Source: Falseniella ignava CCUG 37419 (GTDB lineage: Bacteria > Bacillota > Bacilli > Lactobacillales > Aerococcaceae). Taken from it: a stretch of 64,000 nt of DNA. How positions within the stretch are numbered: position 1 is the first letter of the stretch; every line of letters starts with the position of its first letter. The stretch is taken from positions 723,979 to 787,978 of the forward strand of contig NZ_JH932301.1 in NCBI RefSeq assembly GCF_000301055.1, given 5' to 3'. Below the pieces are notes generated by a model that did no database searches, was not told where the DNA came from, and saw only the letters and a list, made by a program, of their open reading frames with translations. Position numbers and translations under genes: made by a program. Positions 378 to 16,953 of this stretch are shown here, piece after piece.

Positions 378-740
378 GGGGGCGTTCCGGTTTCGACAGG
401 TATTCTTCGTGCAGGTGATGCGTCAAGGAGGTTGCGACTCCTTAATAACGCTACAGTTAAATATAACTGCAAACAATACAAACAACAATTTAGCTTTCGC
501 AGCGTAAAAAACTGCTAGCTAAGATCAGTCTAACTTCTCCCATGAGTTAGTAACTGGTCTCAAATGAAGTGGGATACGTGTATATTCTCCGTCTGTGAAT
601 GTACAAAGAGATAATCAGACTCGCTAATACTGATGCTTGTTTATCGGCTAGGTTGCAGCTAACTCTAAATAGATAAACTATTGACGTAGATTCATCTGAT
701 ACGTGATATTTGGACAGGAGTTCGATTCTCCTCGCCTCCA
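378..740 (+). ncRNA. ssrA: transfer-messenger RNA (tmRNA)
   Basis: tmRNA rescues stalled ribosomes together with SmpB. The 5' end GGGGGCG (378-384) pairs with CGCCTCC (733-739) to form the tRNA-like acceptor stem, with A740 as discriminator; CCA is not encoded. The T-arm sequence GGACAGGAGTTCGATTCTCC is at 712-731. The tag reading frame starts at GCA 469 and stops at TAA 505-507, encoding ANNTNNNLAFAA after the charged alanine. The last 29 bases (712-740) are also the start of the integrated element's attL, so the gene's 3' end was supplied by, or is shared with, the element and remains intact. Confidence 0.95.
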
Positions 741-759
741 TAATACACTATATATTGAT
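712..759 (+). repeat. attL, 48-bp direct repeat overlapping ssrA 3' end
   Basis: It is identical to 10513-10560. Bases just outside the repeat differ (T711 against G10512; T760 against C10561). The repeat covers the T-arm and acceptor strand of tmRNA plus 19 bases beyond. Confidence 0.93.
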
Positions 760-841
760 TTTAAAATGTTTCATTTAGGCTTGATATGACAATGTTTTTC
801 AGAAACAAAACTTCAATCAATTTCAATCAATTTCAAAAAAA

Positions 842-865
842 CCTTGTAACTTTCCTTGTAACTTT
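842..865 (+). repeat. left integrase arm-type direct repeats
   Basis: Two adjacent copies of CCTTGTAACTTT. The same tandem pair in the same orientation lies just inside attR at 10435-10458. Paired direct repeats at both ends of the element are what arm-binding tyrosine integrases of the Tn916/lambda type recognise. The role is inference from position. Confidence 0.7.
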
Positions 866-915
866 TGAGGATTTAAAAAAATAACCGCCCTATCAAAACA
901 ATAGAAAAGAAATAA

Positions 916-940
916 GCGCATCGATTTTCGGTGCGTTTTT
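916..940 (+). terminator. hairpin with T-tract near the element left end
   Basis: GCGCA and TGCG arms with a short inner CGA/TCG pairing precede a run of T. No plus-strand gene of the element ends here, so it may stop transcription coming from ssrA into the element. Confidence 0.45.
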
Positions 941-1532
941 TAATTGCATGAGAATAGACAAACCTCTTAAATGGCTTAAATTAGCCCGTTTTAGGCGTTT
1001 GATATTACCTAATACAACCCCTTTGGGTCTTCGTTCAAAAGGGAATTTTGTGTGTGATTGATGGACAGGGCGGTCTTTAAGAGGCTATTCTTCATGATTT
1101 CGGGCGGGGGGATACATGTGAAGTTGCACTAAACAATCTGATCGTGTATATGTGGTTGTTCGCTCGTGTTGATTTTTGCTGTTTGTTTTCGCGTTGATTT
1201 CTTCGTTTTTCGTCAGTTTTCTTGCAAAGTTTATTATTTATTTTATCGATTGATTTTATTTGTCTTATTTGCTCATCAACTTAAGAAGATTCTTTATTAA
1301 TGAATAAAATTTTTTTCTATAAAACTTTTCAAATGAACATAAAAAATAAGGGCAAAGGTTAGCGTTAGCATTCGCGCTCCTTTGTACCCTCAGTACGTGA
1401 TTGCACTGTGGATACAACATCGCGTATCAAGCAATCACTTTAATTGCATTGGTGACTTCGGTTGTCGTCTATTACAATAAATCTTTTGAATTAACTGTTA
1501 CCGTTTCAATAATCGGTAGGCACTCATAACGG

Positions 1533-2012
1533 TTAGTGCAATTTACTGGCATCGTATTGCCAATGAAGTCGTACCTTAAACGCAATGTACAACCCCTCTG
1601 GCCATATCTTATCTAGTATCTTTACGGCTCCTTTTCTCATGGCATTGACGTCTTCGATGCTAACGTTCAACTTTTCGGCTATCTCTCTACGCTTTAGGTT
1701 GCCAATGCATTTTAAAGCTAAATAGGTTCCTGATACTTCATCTTTAGCGTGAACAGATTTAATGATTTCCCTAATCTGTTTCAGTTCGCTTTCGTACTCG
1801 TCAACGATTCTTTGTTCTACAATCACGCTGTCATTGAATCCTGAAATATTCGTACTTCGATATGATTCTTTAGACGATTCTAGGTCGTGTTCATGGAGTT
1901 CCTTATACCTTTTGATTCGGGTATAATTTTCAAGTTGTTGAATCTTTGTCTTTTTCTCTCGGTCTTTCAACCGTTCCACTCCTCGTATTCGGGTGTTGTT
2001 TTCAATCTTCAT
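1533..2012 (-). CDS. phage-type transcription regulator, sigma-70 region 4-like HTH
   Basis: A 159-residue soluble protein. The first half is charged and probably helical. Roughly residues 100-145 (LKCIGNLKRREIAEKLNV and what follows) form a helix-turn-helix of the sigma region 4 kind found in ArpU/RinA-type late regulators of phages and satellites. ATG 2012 is chosen because AGGTG lies six bases upstream; GTG 2021 is the alternative. It overlaps the end of the preceding gene, so it is the last cistron of the minus-strand operon. The family call is by pattern only; it may control packaging or late genes of a helper phage, which is inference. Confidence 0.6.
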   Translation of the reverse strand: MKIENNTRIRGVERLKDREKKTKIQQLENYTRIKRYKELHEHDLESSKESYRSTNISGFNDSVIVEQRIVDEYESELKQIREIIKSVHAKDEVSGTYLALKCIGNLKRREIAEKLNVSIEDVNAMRKGAVKILDKIWPEGLYIAFKVRLHWQYDASKLH

Positions 2013-2451
2013 ATAATTCACCTAATATATCATTTATTGTTAATTCGTCTTCGTCTTCTTCTGTCTTGTCTTCAACTTGCCTAATGGATTGTTCAATTTG
2101 AGATATGCGGGTATATTGTTCAACCTCTTCATAAGATAAGGGCGCATCAATGGGTAGCACCTTTATATGTGGGATATCCTTAAATTGCACGTATCTATCT
2201 GTTAAACGATCGATTCGCTTTTGCATCGTGTTTTCAGCGGTTAAGATTGCAACGGTGCCATAGTACGGACTAATGCCACCTTGGTAGTTCTCATCGCTTA
2301 ATAGCATGGTGCCTGTGAACGAATGGTTTTGATAAAATCTTGGGGATATTAATTCCTTTTCGTTTTTAAGGAAATCTATTTTCGCCTCAATAGTTTGATA
2401 AAAACTAATAGTGCGCCTTATCTCCGTGGTACTGGCATCAAATACGCTCAT
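2002..2451 (-). CDS. hypothetical satellite protein, acidic C-terminus
   Basis: 149 residues, not recognised. The chain begins with a helical segment rich in Glu/Lys, has a middle part with aromatic and Gly/Tyr residues, and ends in a strongly acidic tail (KTEEDEDELTINDILGELYED-like). No membrane segment or signal. It overlaps the upstream 61-codon gene by 14 bases and the downstream regulator by 11, so translation is probably coupled. Its place between the replication region and the last regulator would suit a helper-interference or packaging-modifying protein, but nothing in the sequence proves that. Confidence 0.6.
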   Translation of the reverse strand: MSVFDASTTEIRRTISFYQTIEAKIDFLKNEKELISPRFYQNHSFTGTMLLSDENYQGGISPYYGTVAILTAENTMQKRIDRLTDRYVQFKDIPHIKVLPIDAPLSYEEVEQYTRISQIEQSIRQVEDKTEEDEDELTINDILGELYED

Positions 2452-2623
2452 ACACTATCATGGCACTGTATTTAGTCGGTGCGCCGTTGGTGGGTGACGT
2501 TTGAAATTGCACGTCAGTAATGGCATAGCCGTCAGCGAATAACCTTTGAGATTTACAATTCAAGATGTCGGTTAGGTCTTCTGAATCGATGGCACTAACA
2601 ACGGCAAAATGTTTTTGGGTCAT
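2438..2623 (-). CDS. small hypothetical satellite protein
   Basis: 61 residues beginning MTQKHFAVVSAIDSED. ATG 2623 is chosen over upstream in-frame codons because AAAGGAG lies about ten bases before it. The short chain could form a single alpha/beta unit with a conserved-looking cysteine in the middle. Not recognised. It is the first cistron after the putative origin region and overlaps the next gene. Confidence 0.55.
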   Translation of the reverse strand: MTQKHFAVVSAIDSEDLTDILNCKSQRLFADGYAITDVQFQTSPTNGAPTKYSAMIVYERI

Positions 2624-2723
2624 GGGTTCGGGTCTCCTTTCACGTTGTAGGTGATAAATTGATGAGTTGTTACAGTTCAAGTTACACATTGGATTTTTGA
2701 AAAAGTGGCTACAAACCTTGTCG

Positions 2724-2925
2724 CATCAACGATTCTGAAAACTGCTAGGGTTGTTACACATTAATCGTCATACTCTATATTTATATCTATATACTATATA
2801 TATTATTAATTTTAATTTTGATAAAAGAAATAATGCATTACAACTGTAACAGGTCTTCTAATCGTTGATGTATCAAGGTTAAATTGATACACATTGATTT
2901 GTATCATCAATAACAATGTGTACCA
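2724..2925. other. putative replication origin of the element (AT-rich core flanked by repeats)
   Basis: A nearly pure A/T core (about 2770-2835) is bracketed by a perfect 11-bp inverted repeat, CATCAACGATT (2724-2734) and AATCGTTGATG (2860-2870). On the right are three copies of TGTATCA/TGATACA (2869-2875, 2885-2891, 2900-2906) and a variant TGTACCA (2919-2925). It lies directly 3' of the primase-helicase gene. In SaPIs the origin is an AT-rich region flanked by iterons just after rep, so position and structure agree. Function is inferred. Confidence 0.6.
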
Positions 2926-2933
2926 AGTGGGGG

Positions 2934-5330
2934 CTATGCGCTTTGGTCTTTCGGCTCGGTCAGTCTAACTAGGGAACGTATCTGTTTCTGAGGTGCAATT
3001 ACTTTGGGAAACAACATGCTTGGTATTGTTTGAATGTAGTCGCTCGCGTATCGCGCGTTCTTGCTCTCGTATACTTCGCCCGTTAAATCGTTTAAGGCTT
3101 TAATCAGTGGGTTGACAAAATGGTAAGGTAGCTTTTGCCTTATACCTGTTTCGTCCATGTATTCCCTCAACAAGTCTTTGATATGAGAAAGGGGCAATTT
3201 TTCAAAACGGGTTAGGTTCTCGTGAATGAACACTTCTTCGACAAATGCGCGGTAGAAATCATTTTCAAACTTGTACTTATCGATTTCAGCCTTAACAGAT
3301 TTAGGTACGATGAATGTTTCAAATTGCAATTCAAGGGCGGTCTTAAGTACATATTCTAAAATGGCCTTGTTATTTAGAAATGTATTCTTGATGCGTGGGT
3401 CGTTATATAAACCGTTAAAATCAGCATTGAATGGGATTAATAGCATTCGACGATGCCAACCTTGGGATTTGTTCCGTACATTCGGCATGCTATTGCCACT
3501 GAACAAACAGAACAGTTTTAGGTTTACCGCGTAGACGGGTTTGCCTTTGGGTTCGATGGTCACGACGTCACCCGTTGCAATACTCATCAAGTCACTTACC
3601 TCATCTAGGTAGGCATTTGAAATATCATCACCTATGTTGCATACCTTACCAACTAACATTTCTTTACTGAATCGGTCAGCAAACTGTGGTGGTTTGAGTG
3701 ATGCAATATTCTCGGTGCCAATTAGATTTTGAAGAAGTGTTTGAAATGTTCCTTTTCCGCTGTTCCCGTCACCAATAAGAAAGCCTATCTTGTTGCGCGT
3801 ATGATTCGGGTTAATAGCTTCATTGATCACTTGCCATAATAGGGTGACAATCTCATCATCATTGCACGCTATGGATTGTAGCCATTCGTTAAAGTCAAAA
3901 TCACCAATACATGGATTTGTCGCGTCAACATTGTAGGCTGTTTTTATCTTACTCGTGAAAATGTATTTAGGACTGAATGGCAATAGTTGCTGTTCGTTTG
4001 TATTGAAGATGCCATTCGCCACGGGGATCAGATAAGGTTTGTCAGATTCTTGTTTTAGCTTGACCTCGGTTCTCAATACTTCAATGACGTTTTTCCAATC
4101 ACTCGGCTTATATCGATAGTCTACCGCCTTGATAAGTTTATTCATCATGGTTTCGGACGATACATAATGGCCTTTGTCATAATCAAAGTATGCTAACCGT
4201 GCCTTGTCGTGTTCTGTTCCAATCAGAATTACCTTAGCATATCGTTTTAGGATTCTAGCGCATTTTAGATAGGGCATTAAAGGTGCTTTGTCGCTGTCTC
4301 CGTCTTTATTCGCGCGTTCCTTTCGCCATATCTCACCAATGTCGTGCAATAACTCGTATTGCTCTTTCATGCTCTTCGGCAATTCATCTTCTTTAAGAAT
4401 AAAATAATCTGTTTGACCGTCTACCATTTGCACGATCGTAGTGAAATCATATTCGGTACGTATATTGCTATTGCCTTTCTCGGCATGGAATTCTTTTAAA
4501 TTTCCCTGTCTCCATTTTTCATCCCCCATTGCCAATATTTCCATGGCTTTAATTGCACCTGATTCATCAATCACGTTATTTTGGAATGATTTAATGATTT
4601 GCATCTTGACGGCAACATAATAAGGGCGCTCTTTCAGTTGTTCAGCAAATTTATTGACGTACTCGGTCATATAATGTTCGACAACTTCAATGGGATAAGC
4701 CCCGCCCTCGTGTTTAGAAAGAGTGAGGGGGAGGCTGTTATCGTCTATTTTAATTTCTTTGACGGGTACTTTTTCACCTCGATTCACGATGATTCGACAA
4801 TCTTCATACAGTCCATTGTCAACGGGTAGCCCGTGAATGCGTGTAAAATCTTTACTTGATGGGTCAGTAGGGATACTTAACGCGTTCATGAATTCTTCGG
4901 TAATTGCAATGGATTCTGGTTCGTTCATCGGTCTTTCGGGTTCGATAATTAATCGATACCGTGCGTGATTTGGTCTACTGTTAATTGTGGGGTACAGCAA
5001 GTATTGGTATTGCTGGCATACTTCGTGTACTTCTTCGATTACGTCTTCATCAGTGAGTGGGGTAGAGTCGCCTTTTTCTCGTTCAATGTCAAGAATGATG
5101 AGGCCTTTGCTCTTGGTTGAAATTTTAGTACGTCTACTGCCCACTAAATGGCCACTAAAAAAATAGGGCTGTTGGTGCTTAACTCTGTCGGGTACTGGTT
5201 TATCTGAATTCGCATCAATTGTGTAATCTATTTTTTGCGGTGGGTAGTCGGCTATTGCGTCAAAATCGCTCTTATCATTGTCTACCATAACGCCTACGGA
5301 TTCATAGATTCGCTTGAACAGATATATCAA
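2934..5330 (-). CDS. satellite primase-helicase (D5/P4-type SF3 helicase with primase-like N-terminus)
   Basis: 798 residues. Residues about 30-180 look like a primase/polymerase or RepB-type primase module, with ILDIEREKG and HARYRLIIEP strands. The C-terminal half carries a P4/D5-type SF3 helicase: Walker A GDGNSGKGT at residues 520-528, followed by a GKVCNIGDDI segment and an FSGNSMP sensor-like segment. Such proteins start autonomous replication of satellites and phages at a nearby origin, here presumed at 2724-2925. TTG 5330 is used because AAAGAGGTG lies seven bases upstream; an ATG about 15 codons downstream is possible. It is coupled to the preceding gene by only a few bases. Confidence 0.85.
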   Translation of the reverse strand: MIYLFKRIYESVGVMVDNDKSDFDAIADYPPQKIDYTIDANSDKPVPDRVKHQQPYFFSGHLVGSRRTKISTKSKGLIILDIEREKGDSTPLTDEDVIEEVHEVCQQYQYLLYPTINSRPNHARYRLIIEPERPMNEPESIAITEEFMNALSIPTDPSSKDFTRIHGLPVDNGLYEDCRIIVNRGEKVPVKEIKIDDNSLPLTLSKHEGGAYPIEVVEHYMTEYVNKFAEQLKERPYYVAVKMQIIKSFQNNVIDESGAIKAMEILAMGDEKWRQGNLKEFHAEKGNSNIRTEYDFTTIVQMVDGQTDYFILKEDELPKSMKEQYELLHDIGEIWRKERANKDGDSDKAPLMPYLKCARILKRYAKVILIGTEHDKARLAYFDYDKGHYVSSETMMNKLIKAVDYRYKPSDWKNVIEVLRTEVKLKQESDKPYLIPVANGIFNTNEQQLLPFSPKYIFTSKIKTAYNVDATNPCIGDFDFNEWLQSIACNDDEIVTLLWQVINEAINPNHTRNKIGFLIGDGNSGKGTFQTLLQNLIGTENIASLKPPQFADRFSKEMLVGKVCNIGDDISNAYLDEVSDLMSIATGDVVTIEPKGKPVYAVNLKLFCLFSGNSMPNVRNKSQGWHRRMLLIPFNADFNGLYNDPRIKNTFLNNKAILEYVLKTALELQFETFIVPKSVKAEIDKYKFENDFYRAFVEEVFIHENLTRFEKLPLSHIKDLLREYMDETGIRQKLPYHFVNPLIKALNDLTGEVYESKNARYASDYIQTIPSMLFPKVIAPQKQIRSLVRLTEPKDQSA

Positions 5331-5334
5331 TCAT

Positions 5335-5721
5335 TTACACCTCTTTCTTTTTCGGCGTGAACAATCTGTAGATATCAACGCTAAGTTCAAGATAATAACT
5401 ATTGATAAAGTAATCTAATACTCTCTCATTATCAAAATCAAGGGCGGTTTGGGCGTTATTAAGTATTAGGTCGGTTATATATTTTGCGAAAAGGGTGTTT
5501 AGGTTATCAAAAAGAAGTTTGTCAAATTCTTGTCTTAGTATTTCATAGGATTTAATAATCTTTTCGATAAAATATTGCTTTTCGCTTAGTGATACTTTTT
5601 TATCGTGTCCTGAACAATTGATTATTTTTTCCATTTCTGTAAAGCTTACTTCTAAACTATCATCGATCATACTAAATAATTCGCTTAAAGCGCTTGGGAA
5701 TACAGTTCTTTTCGTCTCCAT
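5335..5721 (-). CDS. hypothetical satellite protein, separated from its promoter by an IS
   Basis: 128 residues, probably all-helical with no membrane segment, not recognised. The stop lies in the ribosome-binding site of the primase gene. The start codon region (ATG 5721 and the upstream GAAGATTTCATTT) is part of the 28-bp target duplication of the IS at 5735-7376. The original upstream sequence, including the better AAAGGAAG ribosome-binding site, is now on the other side of the IS at about 7405. The reading frame is intact but expression is likely changed. Confidence 0.6.
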   Translation of the reverse strand: METKRTVFPSALSELFSMIDDSLEVSFTEMEKIINCSGHDKKVSLSEKQYFIEKIIKSYEILRQEFDKLLFDNLNTLFAKYITDLILNNAQTALDFDNERVLDYFINSYYLELSVDIYRLFTPKKKEV

Positions 5722-5734
5722 AAATGAAATCTTC
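5707..5734. repeat. 28-bp target duplication, left copy
   Basis: Identical to 7377-7404. A duplication this long is characteristic of IS1202-like elements. Confidence 0.85.
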
Positions 5735-5821
5735 TGTCAAGCACAAATGAATATGTCCCGATTTTTGGGTTTTTAGCGTGTAACGAAAGAGGGTTAAAAA
5801 CTACCGCGCTTCGCTTGGTTG

Positions 5822-5870
5822 CCTCGTGATGATGGACGATACAAAAAGCGCATCGTCCTTCATCACGAGG
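5822..5870. other. long hairpin after the transposase gene
   Basis: A stem of about 20 bp (CCTCGTGATGATGGACGAT against its near-complement) with a short A/T loop lies just after the transposase stop. There is no T-tract after either arm, so it is not a classical intrinsic terminator, though it could slow read-through into the satellite operon. Confidence 0.6.
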
Positions 5871-5878
5871 GATTATCA

Positions 5879-7291
5879 CTACACTTCAATTAGCTCTTTT
5901 TTCTTTATGTATTCTTGCTTCTTTAGGTAACGTTGATAAGATTGTCCTTTCCACGGATGCGACATCGGTGGAATGTGTGGTTTCGGTTTAGACTTAGCTT
6001 CTTGAATATCTAGTATTTTAGATATGGCTTGGTGTGACGGCATTTCAATTAGTTTAAAGAGTTGATTTTTATGAGAGACAAAGAGTTGTAAATCACGCGT
6101 ACTAATGACCATAACTTTAGTTTTTCTTGGCAAATGGACTTGCCTCCCATGCTGGTCGTAAAGATGATAGACATGGTTGTTGTATCGAACAGTATGACCA
6201 GAGTGAATGACACGCAGGGCAAATCTAGCGAGGATGTAATCGAGATTTGTGTCTGCTGATAGTTTTTCAAAGGCATTTATGCTATCTTTAATGGGATGGG
6301 CGAATTTTTGATTAAACTGTGGGAGGTAGTCCCTTAGAAACTGATTCGCTTCATCCATATTACGGATACCATTTAACCGCATTTCTTGAAGTAAGCGGTT
6401 TTGAAACGTACCGAAAAGACGTTCAATACGTCCTTTAGCTTGGGGTACTGAGGTCGCTTCCAGTTCAATTCCAAGTGTCTGGCAAGCATATCCGTATTGA
6501 GTGAGGGCCTGTTCTTCAAGAGCAGCGCCCTTTTTTGGGGTGTTGACGCCTGAGAAAATGGATCGATAATCTGTCAAAATGCGATGAGGAATACCGTAGT
6601 GGGTCAGGAATTGATGTGAGACTTGATAATAGCCTTCAAGTGTCTCCTGTGCTGCGAAATAAGCACCAACGACTGTACCAGTGGCATCATCAATCGCGGC
6701 ATGGAGATAGTAATAGTTCTCGTCAGCCTCGAACCATTGATGTTCTGAAGCATCCATCTGAAGCAGTTCCCCAGCATATTTGCATCGTGGGCGACTCGGG
6801 TGTGCTTTTGAGGCTTCAACGACTTGAACCTCCTGTAAGGTTTCTTTTTCGTGAGGGGTCAGGCCTTTCTTGTCTGCTTTGTCTTCGAGCTCTTTAGCGA
6901 CACGCCGTTTAGTTCGACGGGTAGCTAGAGGCGAGACAATGTGTGCTTCCTTCAAGATATTTCTTAGCGAGCTTTCAGAGAGAAGGATTTCCTCAACTTC
7001 TTGAAGTTTTTCATGGAAGTGTGTGAAGTTAAAGTCATAGTATTTCGAGCGATAGAGCTGAACGATTCGCTTTCGAGTATGACGGTCAATGGTTTTAGAA
7101 GGTTTGCGATTGGCATTCTTATGTCTGAAGCCTTTTCGCCCCTCTTGTTTGTATTTAAGAATCAATCGATTGATCTGTCGTCTGGATAAGTTTAATTCCA
7201 CTTCAGCACGAGCTTTGGATTTCCGTCCATTGACGACAGCCTTGATGATATTATATTTATGTGTCTCATTCATGTTAAGATAATCCTCCAT
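5879..7291 (-). CDS. DDE transposase, IS1202/ISNCY type
   Basis: 470 residues. The N-terminus has two helix-turn-helix regions (about residues 15-60, then a basic stretch). The rve-type catalytic core follows: first Asp in LLQMDASEHQW (about residue 179), second Asp in ILTDYRSIFSG (about 238), Glu in KGRIERLFGTFQ (about 285). The C-terminus carries a small beta module and a basic tail. The length agrees with transposases of the IS1202 group (about 470). ATG 7291 follows GGAGGG. The gene appears complete, so the IS may still be active. Confidence 0.88.
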   Translation of the reverse strand: MEDYLNMNETHKYNIIKAVVNGRKSKARAEVELNLSRRQINRLILKYKQEGRKGFRHKNANRKPSKTIDRHTRKRIVQLYRSKYYDFNFTHFHEKLQEVEEILLSESSLRNILKEAHIVSPLATRRTKRRVAKELEDKADKKGLTPHEKETLQEVQVVEASKAHPSRPRCKYAGELLQMDASEHQWFEADENYYYLHAAIDDATGTVVGAYFAAQETLEGYYQVSHQFLTHYGIPHRILTDYRSIFSGVNTPKKGAALEEQALTQYGYACQTLGIELEATSVPQAKGRIERLFGTFQNRLLQEMRLNGIRNMDEANQFLRDYLPQFNQKFAHPIKDSINAFEKLSADTNLDYILARFALRVIHSGHTVRYNNHVYHLYDQHGRQVHLPRKTKVMVISTRDLQLFVSHKNQLFKLIEMPSHQAISKILDIQEAKSKPKPHIPPMSHPWKGQSYQRYLKKQEYIKKKELIEV

Positions 7292-7376
7292 TGAGATCCC
7301 TCCTTAGATTTAATATACACTAAAGTGGGACATTTTCATTTACGGTTACTTGAGACATTATCATTTGTGGATGAGA

Positions 7377-7404
7377 TCTTTTCGTCTCCATAAATGAAAT
7401 CTTC
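7377..7404. repeat. 28-bp target duplication, right copy
   Basis: Right partner of 5707-5734. The bases that follow (7405 onward) are the original upstream region of the gene at 5335-5721, including AAAGGAA on the minus strand. Confidence 0.85.
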
Positions 7405-7501
7405 CTTTCAATTAAGGTATTTTTAAGGTATAATAATAATGATACACAAATGATTGCAACTTTCGCTTTGGTGGGGCGTTTGTTCTGTTGTTTGTGTTTT
7501 T

Positions 7502-7780
7502 TTAATTTATGACGTGATTATCCATAAACATATGTAGGTCGGTTCGCTTGATATAGCGTTTGTCGCCTATTTTAATAATCGGGATTCCTTTATTCTCGAC
7601 TTGATTCTTGAACGTGTTGTGTACCATTCCTAACATCGATCTAACTTCAGGTACGGTCAAATAATCTTTGGTAATCGTTGCATCTGCTCGGGCTTGTTCC
7701 ATGGCCTCACGGTAGATGCTTTTTAGTGATTCGTTTAATTCTTCATAAAACTCTTGTGGCAATTCTAACTGTAGTGCCAT
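7502..7780 (-). CDS. xis: excisionase-like DNA-binding protein
   Basis: 92 residues. The C-terminal half contains a MerR/excisionase-type winged HTH: DYLTVPEVRSMLGM, then IPIIKIGDKRYIKRTDL. Proteins of this kind direct integrase toward excision or act as small regulators in satellites. ATG 7780 is chosen because GGGGGGTG lies six bases upstream; the stop of the preceding gene overlaps this ribosome-binding site, so translation is coupled. The xis label is by position and fold; it could instead be a regulator of replication genes. Confidence 0.6.
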   Translation of the reverse strand: MALQLELPQEFYEELNESLKSIYREAMEQARADATITKDYLTVPEVRSMLGMVHNTFKNQVENKGIPIIKIGDKRYIKRTDLHMFMDNHVIN

Positions 7781-7781
7781 C

Positions 7782-8000
7782 TTATTCACCCCCCGCCAAT
7801 GTAAAGTGTACGTTGTCTATCTTTTCAATTAATTGTTGGTGTAGGGCGAATGAAGCACTTAAAAAGTCCTTTGATGTTTTAGTGTATGCGAAAGGGTCTT
7901 CAATTGATCCAACCGCATTCATTGCAATCAGTTGTAGCTCTAACATGGTCATGCATTCGTATAATTCATCAGTAAGTTTTTCAACATCTATTTCTCTCAT
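7782..8000 (-). CDS. small hypothetical satellite protein
   Basis: 72 residues beginning MREIDVEKLTDELYECM. ATG 8000 is chosen because AAAGGAGA lies nine bases upstream; the longer TTG start at 8024 has no comparable site. It appears to be a helical bundle without a membrane segment or known motif. It lies between the cro-like and excisionase-like genes and overlaps the ribosome-binding site of the latter. Confidence 0.55.
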   Translation of the reverse strand: MREIDVEKLTDELYECMTMLELQLIAMNAVGSIEDPFAYTKTSKDFLSASFALHQQLIEKIDNVHFTLAGGE

Positions 8001-8234
8001 GATAGGGTCTCTCCTTTTCTTCAATCTTTGATAAGCGTTCGGTCATTGATGCGCCGTGTCTACTGGTCAATATGGCATGGGGTCACCTCTCTTTTTTGAT
8101 ATTCTTTATTAACATTCTACATGTTTCTGTAGGGGTTACTTTTTAATAGACTTAATATTAGGTAATTCAGTTTCAAAATCGAAAGATTATATGCGGTCGG
8201 TAAGTTAATAAAAATACATTTGAATACCATCTGC

Positions 8235-8444
8235 TTAAAAAAATAATCTGTCAATCGTTAATGATGGGTCAGCTTGCTTGAATATATTTAGCAAAATGAT
8301 TTTTTCCTTGTCATTAAATGGTCTTCTGCCTAATTCTTTAGGATTGTATTGCTGTTTTGTCATACCTAATACATCAGCTACATCTTCTTGTGTTAGATTC
8401 ATCATATTACGATAACCTTTGACTAAATTTAGTGATTCTTTCAT
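8235..8444 (-). CDS. Cro-like XRE-family regulator
   Basis: 69 residues with a single HTH_XRE domain: YRNMMNLTQEDVADVLGM is helix 1 plus the turn, and TKQQYNPKELGRRPF is the recognition region. It is the first gene of the minus-strand operon, divergent from the CI-like repressor, in the position of str in SaPIs or cro in temperate phages. ATG 8444 follows GGAAGGAG. Confidence 0.75.
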   Translation of the reverse strand: MKESLNLVKGYRNMMNLTQEDVADVLGMTKQQYNPKELGRRPFNDKEKIILLNIFKQADPSLTIDRLFF

Positions 8445-8480
8445 AAAACAACTCCTTCCGATTTACTTTTGCATACTTAA

Positions 8481-8509
8481 ATATTACCTTATTTTTAATA
8501 CTGTGTCAA
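8481..8509 (-). promoter_or_regulatory. early promoter of the satellite operon
   Basis: On the minus strand, TTGACA (8509-8504), a 17-base spacer, then TAATAT (8486-8481). This is the strongest promoter in the switch region and drives the cro-like gene. Similar sequences ATACTTAAATATTAC (8473-8487) and ATACTTATATTTACT (8509-8523) flank it and may be repressor operators. Confidence 0.7.
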
Positions 8510-8517
8510 TACTTATA

Positions 8518-8546
8518 TTTACTTTTTCTTTTTAAAATGATATTAT
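8518..8546 (+). promoter_or_regulatory. promoter of the CI-like repressor
   Basis: TTTACT (8518-8523), 17-base spacer, TATTAT (8541-8546), then the ribosome-binding site AAGGGGGGGTG. It starts within 10 bases of the opposing early promoter, as in a lysogeny switch. Confidence 0.6.
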
Positions 8547-8569
8547 TAAGTTAAAGGGGGGGTGAATTA

Positions 8570-9166
8570 ATGAATCTTAAACAATTAGGAAAGAAAATTG
8601 AATCAATTAGGATAAATAAAGGACTCACGATGGAAGAGTTTGGTAAGCTATTCAATACAAGTAAAGGAACAGTCAACAACTGGGAGAAAGGCAGAAATTC
8701 ACCCAATAAGACTAATTTAAAAGCCATCGCGGACTTGGCGGGAATTACGGTTAATGAGTTATTAGGCGTTGAAAGATATGATAAGCAAGAAATAATAGAT
8801 GCTATTCATGATGATGATACAATGGAACTTATTATTAAAGCAAAAACCATAGGGGAAGATGAACCTGAATATATAAAAAAAATTAATGAACAAGCATTAG
8901 ATAATATCATTAATGCAATAGAGTCATCTAGAATACATTTTCAAAATTATGAAATAATATCTATGTATATAGATGTTTGTAAAGGGGCAAAAGTTTATGA
9001 CTTGGTCACCCTTTGCAATTATCTGATAGATTTGCGGGATAAAAGAATTCGTTATATGGAAATGTTCAAGGATACCGATTTTATTGCACCGATGTATGCT
9101 AGTGAGATTAGTAGGTTAAATGGATATATAGATTCGATAAAAAGACAACTAGAATCAGAAAAATAA
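8570..9166 (+). CDS. CI/Stl-like XRE-family repressor
   Basis: 198 residues. An N-terminal HTH_XRE domain occupies residues about 5-65 (KGLTMEEFGKLFNTSKGTVNNWE, ending in ITVNELLG). The remainder is helical and has no visible LexA-type Ser/Lys peptidase motif, so induction by RecA cleavage is not suggested. SaPI Stl repressors likewise lack self-cleavage and are lifted by helper-phage proteins; whether that applies here is inference. The gene is divergent from the cro-like gene and precedes the integrase. Confidence 0.75.
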   Translation: MNLKQLGKKIESIRINKGLTMEEFGKLFNTSKGTVNNWEKGRNSPNKTNLKAIADLAGITVNELLGVERYDKQEIIDAIHDDDTMELIIKAKTIGEDEPEYIKKINEQALDNIINAIESSRIHFQNYEIISMYIDVCKGAKVYDLVTLCNYLIDLRDKRIRYMEMFKDTDFIAPMYASEISRLNGYIDSIKRQLESEK

Positions 9167-9268
9167 CGCGTTCGTACGTATTATGAATTATGTGACACAC
9201 AATACAATCTATCTGATTGGCTTTCTTTTTTATTGCTTTGGTGGGGCGGTAGAAAGGAAGATGCCACG

Positions 9269-10429
9269 ATGGCAAAGTATAAACAGTATCAGAACAAAAA
9301 CGGTGATGTCCTATGGCAAGTTAGGGGATATCTGGGCGTTGATGCGCTAACGGGCAAGGAGAAAACAATTTCTCGTCAAGGCTTCAAGACAAAAAAAGAA
9401 GCCCGTCAAGCTTACAATAAAGCGGTGACGGACTTTGAAAATGGCTCTTTTAAAGCCAAAAATAAAAGAATTACCCTAACTGAATTATACCACGAATGGC
9501 TAGATAACGTCTACAAAGATTCGGTGAAAGAATCAACACTAAACAAGACAAAACAGTATTTTAGATTACATATATTGCCCGCATTCGGTGATATGTATGT
9601 GGATAAGATAACGGCGAACATCGTTCAAAAGCAAATAAACAAATGGCACAAAGAATTCAAACAATGGAAGATGCTCTACAATTACTTAATTCGCTTATTA
9701 GATTATGCCGTGATTCATGGCTATATGAAAGAAAACATCAAGCCTAAATTATCGATTCGTAAGAACAAAATAAAATACGATACTGAACACGATGGCATAA
9801 AGTATTACAGTAGAAGCCAATTAAAAAGGCTATTAGACTATATCAAGTCCACGAACAACACAAGATGGTATTGTTATTTTAGGGTACTGGCCTTTACTGG
9901 AATGCGAAAAGGTGAGGCGCTCGCTCTTACATGGAATGATGTCAACTTTCAAGATGGCACAATCAACATCGATAAGACAATCACTTTAGGTGACAAAAAT
10001 AGGGTGATGGTTAATTCTACTAAAACAGAAGCGGGCATTAGAACGATCTCAATTGATAAGGTCACGCTTAAGATTTTAGATGAATGGAAGAAAGAACAAG
10101 CTGTTGAAATGCTAAAATACGGATTCAATACCATCAAGCCTAATCAATTAATCTTTAGCAAGTATTCCACTAATGAACCTTTGAATCTATCAGCCCCGTA
10201 TAATCGACTGCTTAATTACACAAAAAATTGCAATTTGCCTATGATACCAATCCACGGCTTTAGGCATACACATTGTTCATTGCTATTCGATGCGGGGGTA
10301 AGTATTAAAGATGTGATGAATCGGTTAGGGCATTCAGATATTCAAACGACAATGAATATCTATGCGCACGTAACAGATGAACAAGAAAAAGAATCGGCGG
10401 AAATGTTCGCGCGTTTTGTCGGTTTTTAA
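9269..10429 (+). CDS. int: tyrosine-type integrase of the ssrA element
   Basis: 386 residues. The N-terminus (1-60) is an AP2-like arm-binding domain (WQVRGYLGVDALTGK, GFKTKKEARQAY). A SAM-like core-binding domain follows (70-160), then the catalytic domain: Arg in TGMRKGEAL, His-x-x-Arg in HGFRHTHCS, His in LGHSDIQTT and Tyr in NIYAH. ATG 9269 has AAAGGAAG eight bases upstream; the earlier TTG 9233 has no site. Arm-type repeats at 10435-10458 directly follow the stop. It recombines at the tmRNA 3' end. Confidence 0.93.
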   Translation: MAKYKQYQNKNGDVLWQVRGYLGVDALTGKEKTISRQGFKTKKEARQAYNKAVTDFENGSFKAKNKRITLTELYHEWLDNVYKDSVKESTLNKTKQYFRLHILPAFGDMYVDKITANIVQKQINKWHKEFKQWKMLYNYLIRLLDYAVIHGYMKENIKPKLSIRKNKIKYDTEHDGIKYYSRSQLKRLLDYIKSTNNTRWYCYFRVLAFTGMRKGEALALTWNDVNFQDGTINIDKTITLGDKNRVMVNSTKTEAGIRTISIDKVTLKILDEWKKEQAVEMLKYGFNTIKPNQLIFSKYSTNEPLNLSAPYNRLLNYTKNCNLPMIPIHGFRHTHCSLLFDAGVSIKDVMNRLGHSDIQTTMNIYAHVTDEQEKESAEMFARFVGF

Positions 10430-10434
10430 GTAAA

Positions 10435-10458
10435 CCTTGTAACTTTCCTTGTAACTTT
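10435..10458 (+). repeat. right integrase arm-type direct repeats
   Basis: Two tandem copies of CCTTGTAACTTT, identical to 842-865 and in the same orientation. They lie five bases after the integrase stop codon. Confidence 0.7.
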
Positions 10459-10512
10459 GGTAAAACAAGGCATTTAATAGGACGGAAACGTTGATATATC
10501 AAGTTTCTTCAG

Positions 10513-10560
10513 GGACAGGAGTTCGATTCTCCTCGCCTCCATAATACACTATATATTGAT
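10513..10560 (+). repeat. attR, 48-bp direct repeat
   Basis: Perfect copy of 712-759, including a 29-base tmRNA 3' remnant. Confidence 0.93.
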
Positions 10561-10656
10561 CTTAATACATTTCATTTAAGGTTGATATGACAGTGTTTTT
10601 CAGAAAGGAAACTTCAGTCAATTTCAAAAAAGTCATGTAAAAAATCATGTAATTTT
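10561..10656 (+). repeat. left-arm remnant of a second, related element
   Basis: Immediately outside attR the sequence resembles the element's own left arm (760-865): TTTCATTTA, TTGATATGACA, GTGTTTTTCAGAAA, AACTTCA and TCAATTTCAAAAAA are shared. Where the element has two CCTTGTAACTTT repeats, this copy has two 12-base units TCATGTAAAAAA and TCATGTAATTTT (10633-10656). It looks like the left end of another element with different integrase arm specificity. Confidence 0.65.
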
Positions 10657-10675
10657 CAAGGATAAAAGGTTTATT

Positions 10676-10750
10676 GTCAAATAGGGTTGATATAATATTT
10701 TTTTGGAATTAAGCTACTTTTTGTAGCTTAGTTCTTTTTTTGTGTTTCCC
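10676..10750 (+). repeat. 75-bp intergenic repeat, copy 1, with hairpin and T-tract
   Basis: It contains a TATAAT-like box, a 7-bp hairpin AAGCTAC-ttttt-GTAGCTT (10711-10729) and a T run, then TGTGTTTC. A second copy is at 11568-11643 with about 80 percent identity by eye. The hairpin plus T run could act as a terminator. Confidence 0.65.
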
Positions 10751-10751
10751 T

Positions 10752-11125: not shown

Positions 11126-11518
11126 ATGGAACAATTTTTTATCTTTAGTGAGCACACGCTAGCACCACTTGTTATTCATATGTTGGAATTGATTGGAATC
11201 TTTCTGATTGCAATGGGATCATTGCGGGCGTTTTGGCGCCTTCTTTGTTCGGGATTTAATTTCTCAGATCGCAGCACTCAAATTATGTTAGGTGAATCAT
11301 TGGCGATGGCTTTAGAGTTCAAATTGGGTGCCGAAATAATTAAGTCGGTAATCGTACGTGACTTGTCCGAATTAATTATTTTAGGATTTGTTGTCGTATT
11401 GCGAATTGTCCTGACATTTGTGATACATTGGGAATTGAAACAAATGGATGAAGATAATTATCATGACACGATCGCTGAGGAGCAGCAAAATGCGGCAGCC
11501 TTCAAAGAGAAAATATAA
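11126..11518 (+). CDS. DUF1622 family membrane protein
   Basis: 130 residues with three predicted membrane segments (about 12-38, 60-80 and 85-110) and a charged C-terminus. The central ERxxLGESLAMALEFKLGAEI-type segment (here LGESLAMALEFKLGAEII) is typical of DUF1622. The function of the family is unknown. It stands alone between two copies of the 75-bp repeat and two pseudogenes, but its own frame is intact. Confidence 0.75.
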   Translation: MEQFFIFSEHTLAPLVIHMLELIGIFLIAMGSLRAFWRLLCSGFNFSDRSTQIMLGESLAMALEFKLGAEIIKSVIVRDLSELIILGFVVVLRIVLTFVIHWELKQMDEDNYHDTIAEEQQNAAAFKEKI

Positions 11519-11567
11519 AAAATAACCTTACTAAATTGGTTTGGTTAAACCAAAATAGCGGGTCTTT

Positions 11568-11643
11568 GTCAAAAAGGTTTGATAAAATACTTTATGGGAA
11601 TTAAGCTACCTTTTGTAGCTTAGTTCTTTTTTTGTGTTTCTCT
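11568..11643 (+). repeat. 75-bp intergenic repeat, copy 2
   Basis: Second copy of 10676-10750; hairpin AAGCTAC-cttttt-GTAGCTT at 11603-11621 followed by a T run. It can serve as a terminator for the DUF1622 gene. Confidence 0.65.
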
Positions 11644-11644
11644 G

Positions 11645-12050
11645 AAATATACAGTCAAGATATTAAAGGAATTCGGTTTATCGAGGGAAAGAATTTCTGG
11701 ATTTTCAGCTATAGCTATCGCAAAACTTAATCGTCCTTGTTGTCCACTCAATAATTTGGACATATGTAAGTTGATTAAATTATGTAGCTGTGTAATATTA
11801 ACTAATTTGTCAAAAGATTTGAGTTGAGGATAATAAGAACGGGATAAAATAATTTTTTGTGCACTTTCAAATTTTTAAGCACAAATATTATTTTGCAACA
11901 TAATTCCTGTCTTCTCTTTGACTTCTTGATGAGAGATTTAAGCCCTAAAGAACGTGACTTTACCATGATTAGTAGTAATTAAATGCTTCATAATACTAAC
12001 TAAAGTTGATTTTTCAAGCTATTTTCCCCTGCCTTTAATCCTATTATATA
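11645..12050 (-). pseudogene. decayed ABC-transporter ATP-binding protein
   Basis: On the minus strand, fragments follow ABC-ATPase order: a broken Walker A (GEN..KSTLV, about 12040-12000), then an ABC signature KLLSGQQGRLSFAIAIAENP (about 11757-11697) and a Walker B remnant EILSLDKPNSF (about 11700-11665). Stops and frame changes lie between them and the Walker A glycines are lost. It resembles ABC-2/drug-export ATPases. The permease partner is absent. Confidence 0.65.
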
Positions 12051-12237: not shown

Positions 12238-15200
12238 ATGGAAATAAAAAAGTCTCAGGCAAAAGAAGAGATAAAAAAATTAAGACAATTAAAAAATCGA
12301 ATCAATGATCAAATAAATAAAGAAATATCTTCTGATATTATTAAAAATATTAGCGCGTCATTGGACCAAACGTTACAGCAACGGGTGGATGAATTACCAA
12401 AGTCTATCTTAAATAAATTAGTTATTAATATAGGCGAAAAGGATGAAGTTCAAAAGGCTGAGTTAAAGAATTCGATTAAACCTTATTCCTTTCCTTATTT
12501 GAACAGCGAGACTCCCAGCTCAGAGGAAATAGAATTGCTCAATGAATATGTTAATCAATCGAATGTCAAAAAGAAGTATCAAGATCTGAAGAATAAAACA
12601 CATAAAGATTTAGAAGAATTCAATCAAGCTTTAGAAGATATTATTCGCTTAGATAAAAATTTCTTTTTTAAATTATTTCAAAGCAAATCGGATAAATACT
12701 ACTTAAGAGATGCACAGCGTATTGCAAATGAAAAAATGATTATTGTTCAAAATATCGAAGAAAAAATGAGTCAATATGAGCGTATGACCTCTTCTAATCA
12801 TAATTTTATTACTGATTATCGGGAGAATTTTGGGACTTTTCAAGATATTATTGCGAGGATTCTAGATTATAATCCATTAATGATCGATGAATTATGGGGG
12901 CGTTTGTCTGATCTAACTTTGTATTATGTTGAGCAAATTGAGAAAAAAGATCTAAAATCGGTCGAACAACATATTGTTAATAATTGGCTAAATGTTGTTG
13001 ATGAAAAATCTACTGAAAATTTTGATGTTATTTCGATTGATGCGATATCAAGGCGAATTCATAATTCAGAGATGATCACCTATTTAAAAGATAAGGGAAT
13101 TAAAACCTTAGGGGATGTGCGAAATTGGCAAGGAATCATTCCGTCTGAATTTGGTGATGATAAAAATATGCAGCAGGTAGTTGATGCTGTTAATGGCTTT
13201 TATCTGGATAGAGCAAAACAATATTATCCAAAATTCAATTTAAGGGAACTGGGCGGTAACGAAAAAGAGTTACTATTATGGTTATATATTTATAGACGAT
13301 ACACTCCTAAAGAAAAAGAGCTAATCAGTAAATTATCCAAACATTCTCATTTGCTAAGTCAATTGAGTAAAATCTTATCAGAGCCCGTTATCAATATCTA
13401 TCAATATAACCTTTTAAGTGATAAAGATAAGGAATATGTTGGCCAGAAGTACCATCTTTTTTTAGATGAACTCGCAGATTTTATTGAAAAATATAATAAA
13501 ATTTCAATTCCTAAATCCAGCAGTGTAACTACAGATCAAGTATTGTCTGACTTTGAAGAAAATAGTGCGTCATATTATTCATTATTCGAGAAGAGTACAG
13601 GAGCTGGATCAGGCGACAATGTAAATGATCTACCAACTTATATTATTGACGAAGTGAATTGCTTTGAACTAAATGAGACTGAGTTAAAAGCAACATTAAG
13701 ACCATATCAAACCTTTGGCACCAAATATATTTTGACCTATACGAAGACGTTACTTGGAGATGAGATGGGTTTAGGTAAGACAATTCAAGCAATTGCTGCA
13801 ATGAATCATCTCTATCAGGGAGGATCAAAACACTCGATGGTCCTATGTCCTTTAAGTGTGTTACCGAATTGGTCCCATGAAATACGACAATGGTCATCAC
13901 TTCCAGTACATATATATCGTGGATACAGTCGCGAAAGAGAATTGGAAAATTGGCTCGTTAAGGGAGGTGTTCTCTTAACGAACTTTGAGCAAACTAAACA
14001 TTTATTAAAGCGTTCAAGACTTCAAAAAATTGATTGCTTAGTTGTTGATGAAGCCCATAATTTAAAAAATCCTAAGGCTCAAAGAACAAGAGATGTTGAA
14101 AAATTAAGTGAGTATTGCGAATTTATCTTACTTATGACAGGTACCCCGATTGAGAACCGTTTAGATGAAATGAAACACTTGTTGAATATGTTAAATGAAC
14201 CAGTGATATCACGCATTAATTCTAAAAATATTGAAAATAATCCTGAATATTTTAAAGAAATTATCGCACCGGTTTATTTACGACGCAAACGCCTAGATGT
14301 ACTTAACGAACTTCCTGAGATTGAACACATTCAAAAATGGAGTGAATTCCATGAAATTGAAAGAGACTATTATAATAAGGCCTTAGAAGAAGGGTTGGCT
14401 GGTCTAAATAAAATGAGGAGAGCTGGTTATCAAGGAAGAACAAAAAAAGAGTCGCCAAAAATAAAACAGTTGTTGGAAATATGTGAAGAAGCGGCGCAAA
14501 ATGATGATAAAATAATTATTTTTTCTTTTTTCAAACTTGTTTTAGACATTTTAGAACCACTCCTTAAAAATCGAGTTGTAGGTAGAATACAAGGAGGTGT
14601 CCCGCCTAAACAGCGGCAAAAATACATAGATAAGTTAGGAAGTGCTCCTAGTGGTTCTATTCTTCTTGCTCAAATAGATTCTGGTGGAACAGGATTAAAT
14701 ATCCAGGCTGCAAATATTGTAATATTATGTGAGCCGCAGTGGAAACCATCTACTATTAATCAAGCTGTGAGTCGTGTATATCGAATGGGACAAACAAAAA
14801 ATGTCCAAGTATTCCATATGTTATCTGAAGAAAGTTTGGATGAAACGATACTGGAAATGTTAGACTATAAACAATCAATATTCAATACATATGCTGATGA
14901 ATCGTTTGTCGCTGAAAGCTTTGAAGCTAAAGAAAATGAAGTAAATGAAAAGGTGCTGGGTAATCAGATTATAAAACGTGAGCGAGAACGATTAGATCGT
15001 CACAAAAAAGACTTAAAATCTAAGAACATCTCGAATGAAAAGGTAAATAGTCAATCTAAGTCGATATTTACCCCTATCCCGAATCGTGAAAGAAAGACGA
15101 TTAAACCCAAACGAATTATAAGTTATGATGAGGTTGATTACTTGCTTAGACCACGAGGACAAGACTTGAGAAAGTATGTGGCGGTTGATGTGGAGACAAC

Positions 15201-15681
15201 AGGACGTTATTTAACTGATGAAATTATTGAAGTGTCTGCTGTAAAATTTGTTGATGGCTATCCTAAAGAATCGTTTAATCAATTGGTAAAACCATCCGAA
15301 TTAATTCCGGCTGAAGCAACTGAAATAAATAATATAACAAATGAAATGGTGAGAAATGCGCCAAAAATTTCAGAAGTAGTCAAACTTTTTGATGAGTTTA
15401 TCGGGGATTGGCCGATTGTAGGACATAATTTAAGATTTGACTTAAGATTTCTTTATCGAGGTGGGTCACAAATTCTCCGAACACCGCGTAATTATTATTG
15501 CACGCATATGATAGGTAAAGATCGAATCGATCGTGGCCAAGTTGAGAATTATAAGTTGGTAACGTTATGTGGTTATTTTGGTATACAGCTTAATCGAGCC
15601 CATCGAGCCTCGACTGATGCTGTTGCAACAGGAAAATTACTTTATGCGCTTTTTGCCAGCCAAAAAGATAGATATTGGTAA
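12238..15681 (+). CDS. SNF2-family helicase fused to a DEDDh exonuclease
   Basis: 1147 residues. Residues 1-480 are unrecognised, mostly helical, with coiled-coil-like stretches near 1-40 and 110-190. A SNF2 ATPase follows: Walker A GDEMGLGKT (507-515), DEAH box (604-607), TGTPIENR, then helicase C-terminal motifs SGGTGLNIQ (815-823) and QAVSRVYRMGQ (842-852). After a basic linker, residues 980-1140 form a DnaQ-like exonuclease with all five acidic/His positions: D984 and E986 in VDVETTG, D1068 in GHNLRFDLRF, H1122 and D1127 in HRASTDAVAT. The order suggests translocation on duplex DNA coupled to 3'-5' degradation. Base composition is more AT-rich than downstream core genes and the gene stands alone between pseudogenes and dacA, consistent with transfer. 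A defence role is inference; repair is the alternative. Confidence 0.88.
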   Translation: MEIKKSQAKEEIKKLRQLKNRINDQINKEISSDIIKNISASLDQTLQQRVDELPKSILNKLVINIGEKDEVQKAELKNSIKPYSFPYLNSETPSSEEIELLNEYVNQSNVKKKYQDLKNKTHKDLEEFNQALEDIIRLDKNFFFKLFQSKSDKYYLRDAQRIANEKMIIVQNIEEKMSQYERMTSSNHNFITDYRENFGTFQDIIARILDYNPLMIDELWGRLSDLTLYYVEQIEKKDLKSVEQHIVNNWLNVVDEKSTENFDVISIDAISRRIHNSEMITYLKDKGIKTLGDVRNWQGIIPSEFGDDKNMQQVVDAVNGFYLDRAKQYYPKFNLRELGGNEKELLLWLYIYRRYTPKEKELISKLSKHSHLLSQLSKILSEPVINIYQYNLLSDKDKEYVGQKYHLFLDELADFIEKYNKISIPKSSSVTTDQVLSDFEENSASYYSLFEKSTGAGSGDNVNDLPTYIIDEVNCFELNETELKATLRPYQTFGTKYILTYTKTLLGDEMGLGKTIQAIAAMNHLYQGGSKHSMVLCPLSVLPNWSHEIRQWSSLPVHIYRGYSRERELENWLVKGGVLLTNFEQTKHLLKRSRLQKIDCLVVDEAHNLKNPKAQRTRDVEKLSEYCEFILLMTGTPIENRLDEMKHLLNMLNEPVISRINSKNIENNPEYFKEIIAPVYLRRKRLDVLNELPEIEHIQKWSEFHEIERDYYNKALEEGLAGLNKMRRAGYQGRTKKESPKIKQLLEICEEAAQNDDKIIIFSFFKLVLDILEPLLKNRVVGRIQGGVPPKQRQKYIDKLGSAPSGSILLAQIDSGGTGLNIQAANIVILCEPQWKPSTINQAVSRVYRMGQTKNVQVFHMLSEESLDETILEMLDYKQSIFNTYADESFVAESFEAKENEVNEKVLGNQIIKRERERLDRHKKDLKSKNISNEKVNSQSKSIFTPIPNRERKTIKPKRIISYDEVDYLLRPRGQDLRKYVAVDVETTGRYLTDEIIEVSAVKFVDGYPKESFNQLVKPSELIPAEATEINNITNEMVRNAPKISEVVKLFDEFIGDWPIVGHNLRFDLRFLYRGGSQILRTPRNYYCTHMIGKDRIDRGQVENYKLVTLCGYFGIQLNRAHRASTDAVATGKLLYALFASQKDRYW

Positions 15682-15774: not shown

Positions 15775-16953
15775 TTATTTTTTAAAGAAATTGAAGATGC
15801 CACGCATAAAGTTCGTAATCGGATTATCACGATGATTGGTTAGTGTTTGTTCTTCTATTTCAGACTCTTCAGTCGCTTCAATACTGGTTTCTTCTTGAAC
15901 GACAACTTCTTTTGTAATTGTCGGTAAATCTTTTTGGTATAAATCCGGATAATCTAGCAAGCCGTCTAATAAAATTTCAATTTCCCAGTAAGATGAGTAA
16001 GCTTCTTCAAATACTCCCATAGCGATTGCGATATAATTGCGACCGTCTTGAGAACCAGTTGCGACAAAACATTTACCAGCGGAGTTTGTGAAGCCAGACT
16101 TCAATCCAGTAACACCTTGACGCGCATAAGTACCGCCTTCAAGTAGTTGGTTCATATTATAGAGTGGTCGCTCTTGCGCGGTGCCTTCCATAAAGATATA
16201 GTCTTTGGTTTGGGCAATATCTAAGATAAAAGGTTTTTCTTCAATAATATGTTTAGTCACTAGTGCAAGGTCGGCAGCAGACATCATATTTTGGTGTGTA
16301 TCATTTGACCCTGGCATCCAGAAAGATTCAGGGACATCAAGGTTTGGAGCGCCGGAAGTTGAGTAAAGGGCAACATCAGTGATATTCCACTCAGCTAATT
16401 TATTAATCATCGCCTCGACTCCTGCTTGCTCACTGCCGTATAATTTCCACATCAGAGCAGAAGTAGCATCATTAGCTGATTCAATCATAACAGCGTAAAT
16501 TAAATCTTTGACAGGGTATTCTACATCTTCCTCTAAGCCCACATTGCTTAGTTCAGGATTGTGAGAAATACCATCGACAATTTCTTTAGGAATGGTAATT
16601 TTATCATCCATTTTAAGCTGGCCTTGGTCGATCGCATCTAGAATTAAATAGGTAGAAATAACTTTGGTCATTGAAGCGATTGGATAAGGTGTGGTCGCAG
16701 ATCCCTGTGCTAAGATTTTTTCCGTTTCTTGATCCACAACGATATAAGACCGTGAGTCGATATTTTTATTATAAAATTCGAGTAACTCAGTTGGGTAATC
16801 AGCAGGCATTTCTACAGGTTCAATTTCGCTAAAGTCAAGATTGCTTTCTAAGTCTGGGGTTTTACTCATACTATATACTGTCGGTGAAGAAAGATTCAAA
16901 GTAAGAATCAATCCTATGACTAGTGAAAGTATATTTCGAGTGAGTGATTGCAT
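15775..16953 (-). CDS. dacA: D-alanyl-D-alanine carboxypeptidase (low-molecular-weight PBP)
   Basis: 392 residues. It trims the terminal D-Ala from peptidoglycan stem peptides at the outer face of the membrane. An N-terminal signal segment (about 5-28) is followed by the S11 peptidase domain with SMTK (94-97), SAN (159-161) and KSG (285-287). The last 12 residues (NFMRGIFNFFKK) form an amphipathic helix for membrane attachment. ATG 16953 follows AGGAGG. It is monocistronic. Confidence 0.92.
   Translation of the reverse strand: MQSLTRNILSLVIGLILTLNLSSPTVYSMSKTPDLESNLDFSEIEPVEMPADYPTELLEFYNKNIDSRSYIVVDQETEKILAQGSATTPYPIASMTKVISTYLILDAIDQGQLKMDDKITIPKEIVDGISHNPELSNVGLEEDVEYPVKDLIYAVMIESANDATSALMWKLYGSEQAGVEAMINKLAEWNITDVALYSTSGAPNLDVPESFWMPGSNDTHQNMMSAADLALVTKHIIEEKPFILDIAQTKDYIFMEGTAQERPLYNMNQLLEGGTYARQGVTGLKSGFTNSAGKCFVATGSQDGRNYIAIAMGVFEEAYSSYWEIEILLDGLLDYPDLYQKDLPTITKEVVVQEETSIEATEESEIEEQTLTNHRDNPITNFMRGIFNFFKK

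Follow-up and report, generated by a model that had tools for sequence, protein, structure and literature searches.

A solitary SNF2 translocase–DEDDh exonuclease fusion in an accessory interval of Falseniella ignava, a candidate single-gene defence protein

A 64,000-nucleotide stretch of the Falseniella ignava CCUG 37419 genome (hereafter the window) was examined in the present study, with a focus on a single gene coding for an SNF2-family motor joined to a DEDDh exonuclease (Table 1). The open reading frame has an ATG start and no internal stop, and its 1147-residue product matches the Pfam families SNF2-rel_dom (residues 490-724, 1e-35), Helicase_C (741-851, 6e-16) and RNase_T exonuclease (981-1134, 8e-26). 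The motor motifs are GDEMGLGKT (507-515), DEAH (604-607) and SRVYRMGQ (845-852), followed in the exonuclease part by DVETTG (984-989), HNLRFD (1063-1068) and HRASTD (1122-1127). A preliminary description of the locus had proposed a fusion of these two domains in one frame with all five DEDDh residues present, and both points are borne out, the residues being D984, E986, D1068, H1122 and D1127. It had also called the gene AT-rich, which holds for the 5' end coding for the N-terminal part (30% GC versus 37.6% in core genes) but not for the exonuclease part, where the GC content is core-like at 36.7%.

Table 1 Features of the tmRNA-dacA interval and of the SNF2-DEDDh fusion gene, with positions in the window
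Feature	Position	Strand	Evidence or remark
tmRNA gene, bordering the accessory interval	378..740	+	
Integrated element at the tmRNA gene	712..10627		attL-like 712-826 and attR-like 10513-10627 (115 nt, 91%)
Terminator-like stem-loop upstream, parting the SNF2 gene from the DUF1622 gene	11596..11628	+	
Whole gene, SNF2 motor-DEDDh exonuclease fusion	12238..15681	+	uninterrupted 1147-aa ORF, all motifs present
N-terminal all-helical region, residues 1-467	12238..13638	+	common to long-form homologues; AlphaFold2
SNF2-family motor, residues 481-925	13678..15012	+	Pfam; Walker A 13756-13782, DEAH 14047-14058, SRVYRMGQ 14770-14793
Charged linker, residues 926-976	15013..15165	+	found in the window protein only (alignment)
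DEDDh 3'-5' exonuclease domain, residues 977-1145	15166..15672	+	RNase_T; DVETTG 15187-15204, HNLRFD 15424-15441, HRASTD 15601-15618
Strong hairpin where the SNF2 and dacA genes converge	15708..15751		fold -35.9 kcal/mol, z -7.7
Core gene for a dacA-like D-alanyl-D-alanine carboxypeptidase, bordering the interval at its other end	15775..16953	-	Pfam Peptidase_S11; orthologues beside thrS in several relatives

Assignment of the motor to the SNF2 group of superfamily 2 ATPases is based on the Walker A and DEAH motifs, the motif VI arginines and two RecA lobes, as seen by Pfam, motif inspection, the structure model and Foldseek. Its catalytic residues are unvarying across 25 family members, and among solved structures the Sulfolobus SNF2/Rad54 core 1z63 is nearest in sequence (1.3e-47). 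SNF2 proteins are double-stranded DNA translocases that generally do not separate the strands, while DEDDh enzymes trim 3' ends. The exonuclease domain has the D, E, D and D residues and the histidine of an Hx4D motif that define the DEDDh (DnaQ-like) group, and scores 85.5 bits against TIGR00573 (dnaq; cut-off 71.5); 3'-5' activity is predicted from these intact catalytic residues. In a full-length structure model the linker has low confidence and is partly helical; confidence is low for the DEDDh part as well, since the relatives in the alignment all lack this domain.

The N-terminal region was originally described as a 480-residue stretch of unrecognised sequence, possibly a sensor unique to this protein. 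Residues 1-480 indeed have no Pfam match above cut-off, but the region is conserved within a wider SNF2 family, and the idea of a unique sensor is not supported. When residues 1-487 alone served as the query, 7 of the 397 other genomes searched in the order contained relatives, and alignment indicates that the long N-terminus is common to proteins of ~920-957 aa from Ruoffia, Facklamia, an Aerococcaceae isolate, Aerococcus tenax and Lactobacillus crispatus. We refer to proteins with this homologous helical N-terminus and the motor as the long form, to which the window protein belongs; a short form of ~710-740 aa keeps only the motor-proximal part of the N-terminal region. The family profile matched the helix-hairpin-helix (HhH) of the RNA polymerase alpha-CTD (1.8e-5) and of Rad51 (8.9e-5); single family members matched Pfam HHH_5 weakly. 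AlphaFold2 predicts the region to be all helices (mean pLDDT 86), with no fold match in the PDB at E<=0.001. The HhH element of the window protein, near residues 265-325, is degenerate and has lost the hairpin glycines, so that DNA binding through it can only be presumed.

Phylogenetic analysis nested the window protein within the Aerococcaceae long forms, together with those of Aerococcaceae DSM 111020 and Ruoffia (supports 96/92 and 97/95), and neither of these nearest relatives has a DEDDh domain. Relatives of comparable length stop 63-167 residues past the RxGQ motif (mostly 65-95), while the window protein runs on for ~295 residues past it. An order-wide genome search gave matches ending near residue 920-940, in open frames of at most 961 aa, and among 182 SNF2-motor ORFs scanned in the fetched loci a DEDDh domain was found in one, the window gene. 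Since the protein sits among unfused Aerococcaceae long forms in the tree, the exonuclease is most simply explained as a lineage-specific gain. The coupling of motor and exonuclease suggested at the outset therefore stands for the architecture of this protein but not as a rule of the family, most members of which lack a fused exonuclease.

Nucleases are nonetheless associated with the family elsewhere. In A. tenax (locus L040), a 552-aa DEDDh protein with a TPR-like C-terminal part is encoded convergently beside the SNF2 relative (12835-14493, minus strand). In the family member of a Bacillales MAG (L046), the N-terminus is extended by a PD-(D/E)XK-like domain (PADLOC RTasPDDEXK, 2e-6), and the gene lies 205 bp beyond a HsdM-HsdS-HsdR-like operon, the whole arrangement spanning 427-10046. 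The A. tenax and L046 relatives acquired these nucleases separately, and nuclease recruitment has been repeated in the family. Proteins of 546-600 aa resembling the A. tenax exonuclease stand alone in two further genomes (G008 and G040; loci L130 and L131). For descent of the window exonuclease from that of A. tenax there was no support, PolC-type and other DnaQ-like domains being about equally similar to the window domain.

The SNF2 family is accessory, being present in 10 of 77 genomes of the taxonomic family, 16 of 398 of the order and 4 of 400 of the class, while in the phylum sample the window genome was alone among 399 at the chosen thresholds. Homologues are therefore patchy rather than the conserved core genes in syntenic housekeeping positions that would have spoken against the original proposal, yet the gene occupies a stable place in Phocicoccus and Oceanobacillus, where it appears to be genus-stable. 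Most members are solitary, many of them beside housekeeping genes. Defence genes around the homologues, a further check proposed in the preliminary description, were found in part: RM, Mcr or Mrr neighbours occur at 7 of 24 Bacilli loci, six of them independent (a raw count from a 12-protein panel and reading), but at none of ~60 mostly clostridial loci, where absence from the same 12-protein panel is weak evidence. Close relatives with a type I RM, McrBC or Mrr gene nearby are those at L034, L036/L037, L038, L040, L046 and L048. Clustering of neighbours identified no conserved partner gene other than a DUF4236-like one, seen at five clostridial loci.

In L058, L074, L079, L094 and L114 the short form adjoins, and often overlaps, the DUF4236-like gene (named by reading). 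The short-form gene in two genomes of one genus (L036 and L037) overlaps a McrB-like gene, is followed by a McrC-like gene and lies beside HsdR. At L096 11218-12105, from a Methanococcoides MAG, an archaeal relative is found near a gene that reads as CD-NTase-like. Phage origin is unlikely, as a first viral scan was empty and an alignment scan gave one family-level match (L173).

In the window, the gene was described as solitary, and its setting agrees: it is convergent with dacA, with a strong hairpin between the two that is probably a bidirectional terminator on the basis of its predicted fold, and has a terminator-like site upstream. Around it lie only core genes, remnants of genes and an integrated element, with no defence operon. 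The element at the tmRNA gene carries an integrase (9233-10429), a D5-type primase (2934-5330) and an rve-domain transposase gene (5879-7291) that may itself have been inserted into the element; a 31-nt repeat (5704-5734 and 7374-7404) brackets the transposase gene. The SNF2 gene starts 1.6 kb past attR, and we accordingly rejected it as mobile cargo of this element. Between the two, a 78-nt direct repeat, 90% identical (10674-10751 and 11566-11643) and including a terminator-like stem, flanks the DUF1622 gene (11126-11518), and a short ABC transporter ATPase-like fragment, by reading probably a gene remnant, lies on the minus strand at 11620-11763.

In several relatives dacA directly adjoins thrS, indicating that the tmRNA-dacA interval is variable. 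In a genome of a related genus (G020), the tmRNA gene (L160 9076-9438) and dacA bracket ~17 kb (L160 9438-19501 and L150 46-7436) with genes for Avs2 (8e-193), a type IIG RM, Mrr and TIR. The earlier view of a hotspot at the tmRNA gene is thus upheld, and the same interval with defence genes in a second genus supports it more strongly than the window alone.

The protein was compared with known systems built around similar domains. Scores fell far below the model cut-offs for DISARM (DrmD, 71-77 bits versus NCBIfam cut-offs of 610/950), Dpd (DpdE, NF041062, 89 versus 500), Zorya (ZorD, NF041790, 101 versus 1500) and the PLD anti-phage protein (NF042964, 59 versus 1100), while the DinG-exonuclease model TIGR01407 covers the exonuclease part only (85 bits versus 547.7). 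By reading, no methylase, DrmA, DrmB or PLD ORF neighbours the gene and no 7-deazaguanine DNA-modification gene is nearby. The PADLOC models PDLC02852 ('DpdE') and PDLC02627 ('DrmD') do match the window protein strongly, and diverged family members (L113 and L120) match them over nearly the full length. Because these models capture lone members of the same family, their names should not be taken as a function. The proteins they describe share the motor subfamily and, in the long form, the same helical N-terminus, but the other members found lack a C-terminal DEDDh domain, and their loci are mostly lone genes that are not visibly Dpd or DISARM operons.

Type I Zorya ZorD likewise has an SNF2 motor with a nuclease, but the nuclease is Mrr-like and the protein needs ZorA/B/C; the PLD anti-phage model also has an SF2/SNF2-type motor, with PLD in place of DEDDh as the nuclease. 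In BREX-related systems, fusions of SNF2 to a nuclease have been described and given the role of restriction effectors (PMC12839542). These resemble the window protein in architecture and proposed defence role, but their nucleases are PD-(D/E)XK or HKD endonucleases, two of their three types have TUDOR domains, and they act with methylase and ATPase partners (PMC12839542). What appears new here is the joining of DEDDh to SNF2, fusions with PD-(D/E)XK or HKD nucleases having already been described (PMC12839542). We found no description of an SNF2-DEDDh fusion in the open-access literature, in line with the initial statement that no named single-gene system is known to have this order.

Based on these observations, we propose that this solitary accessory gene codes for a single-gene translocase-exonuclease directed at foreign or aberrant DNA, a sequence-based reading to which we assign a probability of about one half. 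Defence is favoured because of the location, the patchiness and the repeated recruitment of nucleases. Docking on DNA or on a DNA-bound partner would be the task of the helical N-terminal region and its degenerate HhH, and the SNF2 domain would translocate on double-stranded DNA with the strands kept together, as SNF2 proteins generally do. The tethered DEDDh domain would then remove nucleotides from 3' ends or nicks reached by the motor. The likeliest targets would be DNA of phages or plasmids, either entering the cell or replicating, or the aberrant ends that it creates. Unfused relatives would supply the motor only, with the nuclease separate or neighbouring. More tentatively, and with the balance somewhat against it, the protein may by itself constitute a defence system, its SNF2 motor translocating on invading double-stranded DNA and dragging the tethered DEDDh 3'-5' exonuclease along. 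It would then represent, in fused form, a widespread and unnamed class of defence helicases of the SNF2 type to which DEDDh, PD-(D/E)XK or type I restriction nucleases are recruited by fusion or proximity.

The main rival is a motor-exonuclease for DNA repair or recombination, acting at stalled forks, crosslinks or recombination intermediates and sporadically kept in few lineages. It owes this position to S. aureus DinG (SaDinG), the nearest functionally studied fusion of a DEDDh domain to an SF2 helicase, which is a repair enzyme needed for crosslink resistance (PMC12345164). Like the window protein, SaDinG combines a DEDDh 3'-5' exonuclease and an SF2 motor in one Gram-positive polypeptide, but its exonuclease is N-terminal, its motor is an XPD-like unwinding helicase instead of SNF2, and its role is in repair (PMC12345164). 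The Rad54-like nature of the nearest solved motor, the resemblance of the family HhH element to those of Rad51 and RNA polymerase alpha-CTD, and the many solitary relatives beside housekeeping genes are all consistent with repair. We nevertheless consider this explanation less likely than defence, given the patchy presence of the family, the defence genes in the corresponding interval of G020, and a separate probable DinG with an N-terminal DEDDh domain (836-aa frame) already present in the window genome.

By analogy with Hachiman, the protein could also be an abortive sensor of genome integrity, in which the motor would patrol intact DNA and restrain the nuclease until damaged or phage-altered DNA frees it, leading to destruction of phage and host DNA alike. 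Hachiman HamAB similarly couples a motor as sensor to a nuclease as effector on DNA, but does so with two proteins, another SF2 helicase and another nuclease (PMC12278908). PMC12839542 likewise cites, as its reference 106, a helicase/nuclease that confers phage resistance through abortive infection. Separation of the Hachiman activities on two proteins, the different nuclease type of HamA, and the need of a processive 3'-5' exonuclease for an end, which makes it less obviously able to destroy intact genomes, render this mechanism improbable. Least probable is a chance or decaying fusion, with a recently joined DEDDh domain adding little to a protein that works like the unfused members: the lack of a second fused member among the family proteins compared, the unfused nearest relatives in the tree and the core-like GC content of the exonuclease part next to an AT-rich N-terminal part would fit it, but the five intact catalytic residues, the unbroken frame and the DEDDh gene independently placed beside the SNF2 relative in A. 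tenax, which suggests a functional pairing, argue against it.

If the protein instead serves in repair, SaDinG would be joined by a helicase-exonuclease repair fusion of another kind. If the proposed defence function is correct, it would provide a function for a scattered, unnamed SNF2 family labelled only DpdE or DrmD by PADLOC, and the pairing of a DEDDh exonuclease with an SNF2 motor would join the helicase-nuclease defence proteins. The tmRNA-dacA interval of the Aerococcaceae would then also be marked as a place to seek further defence genes.
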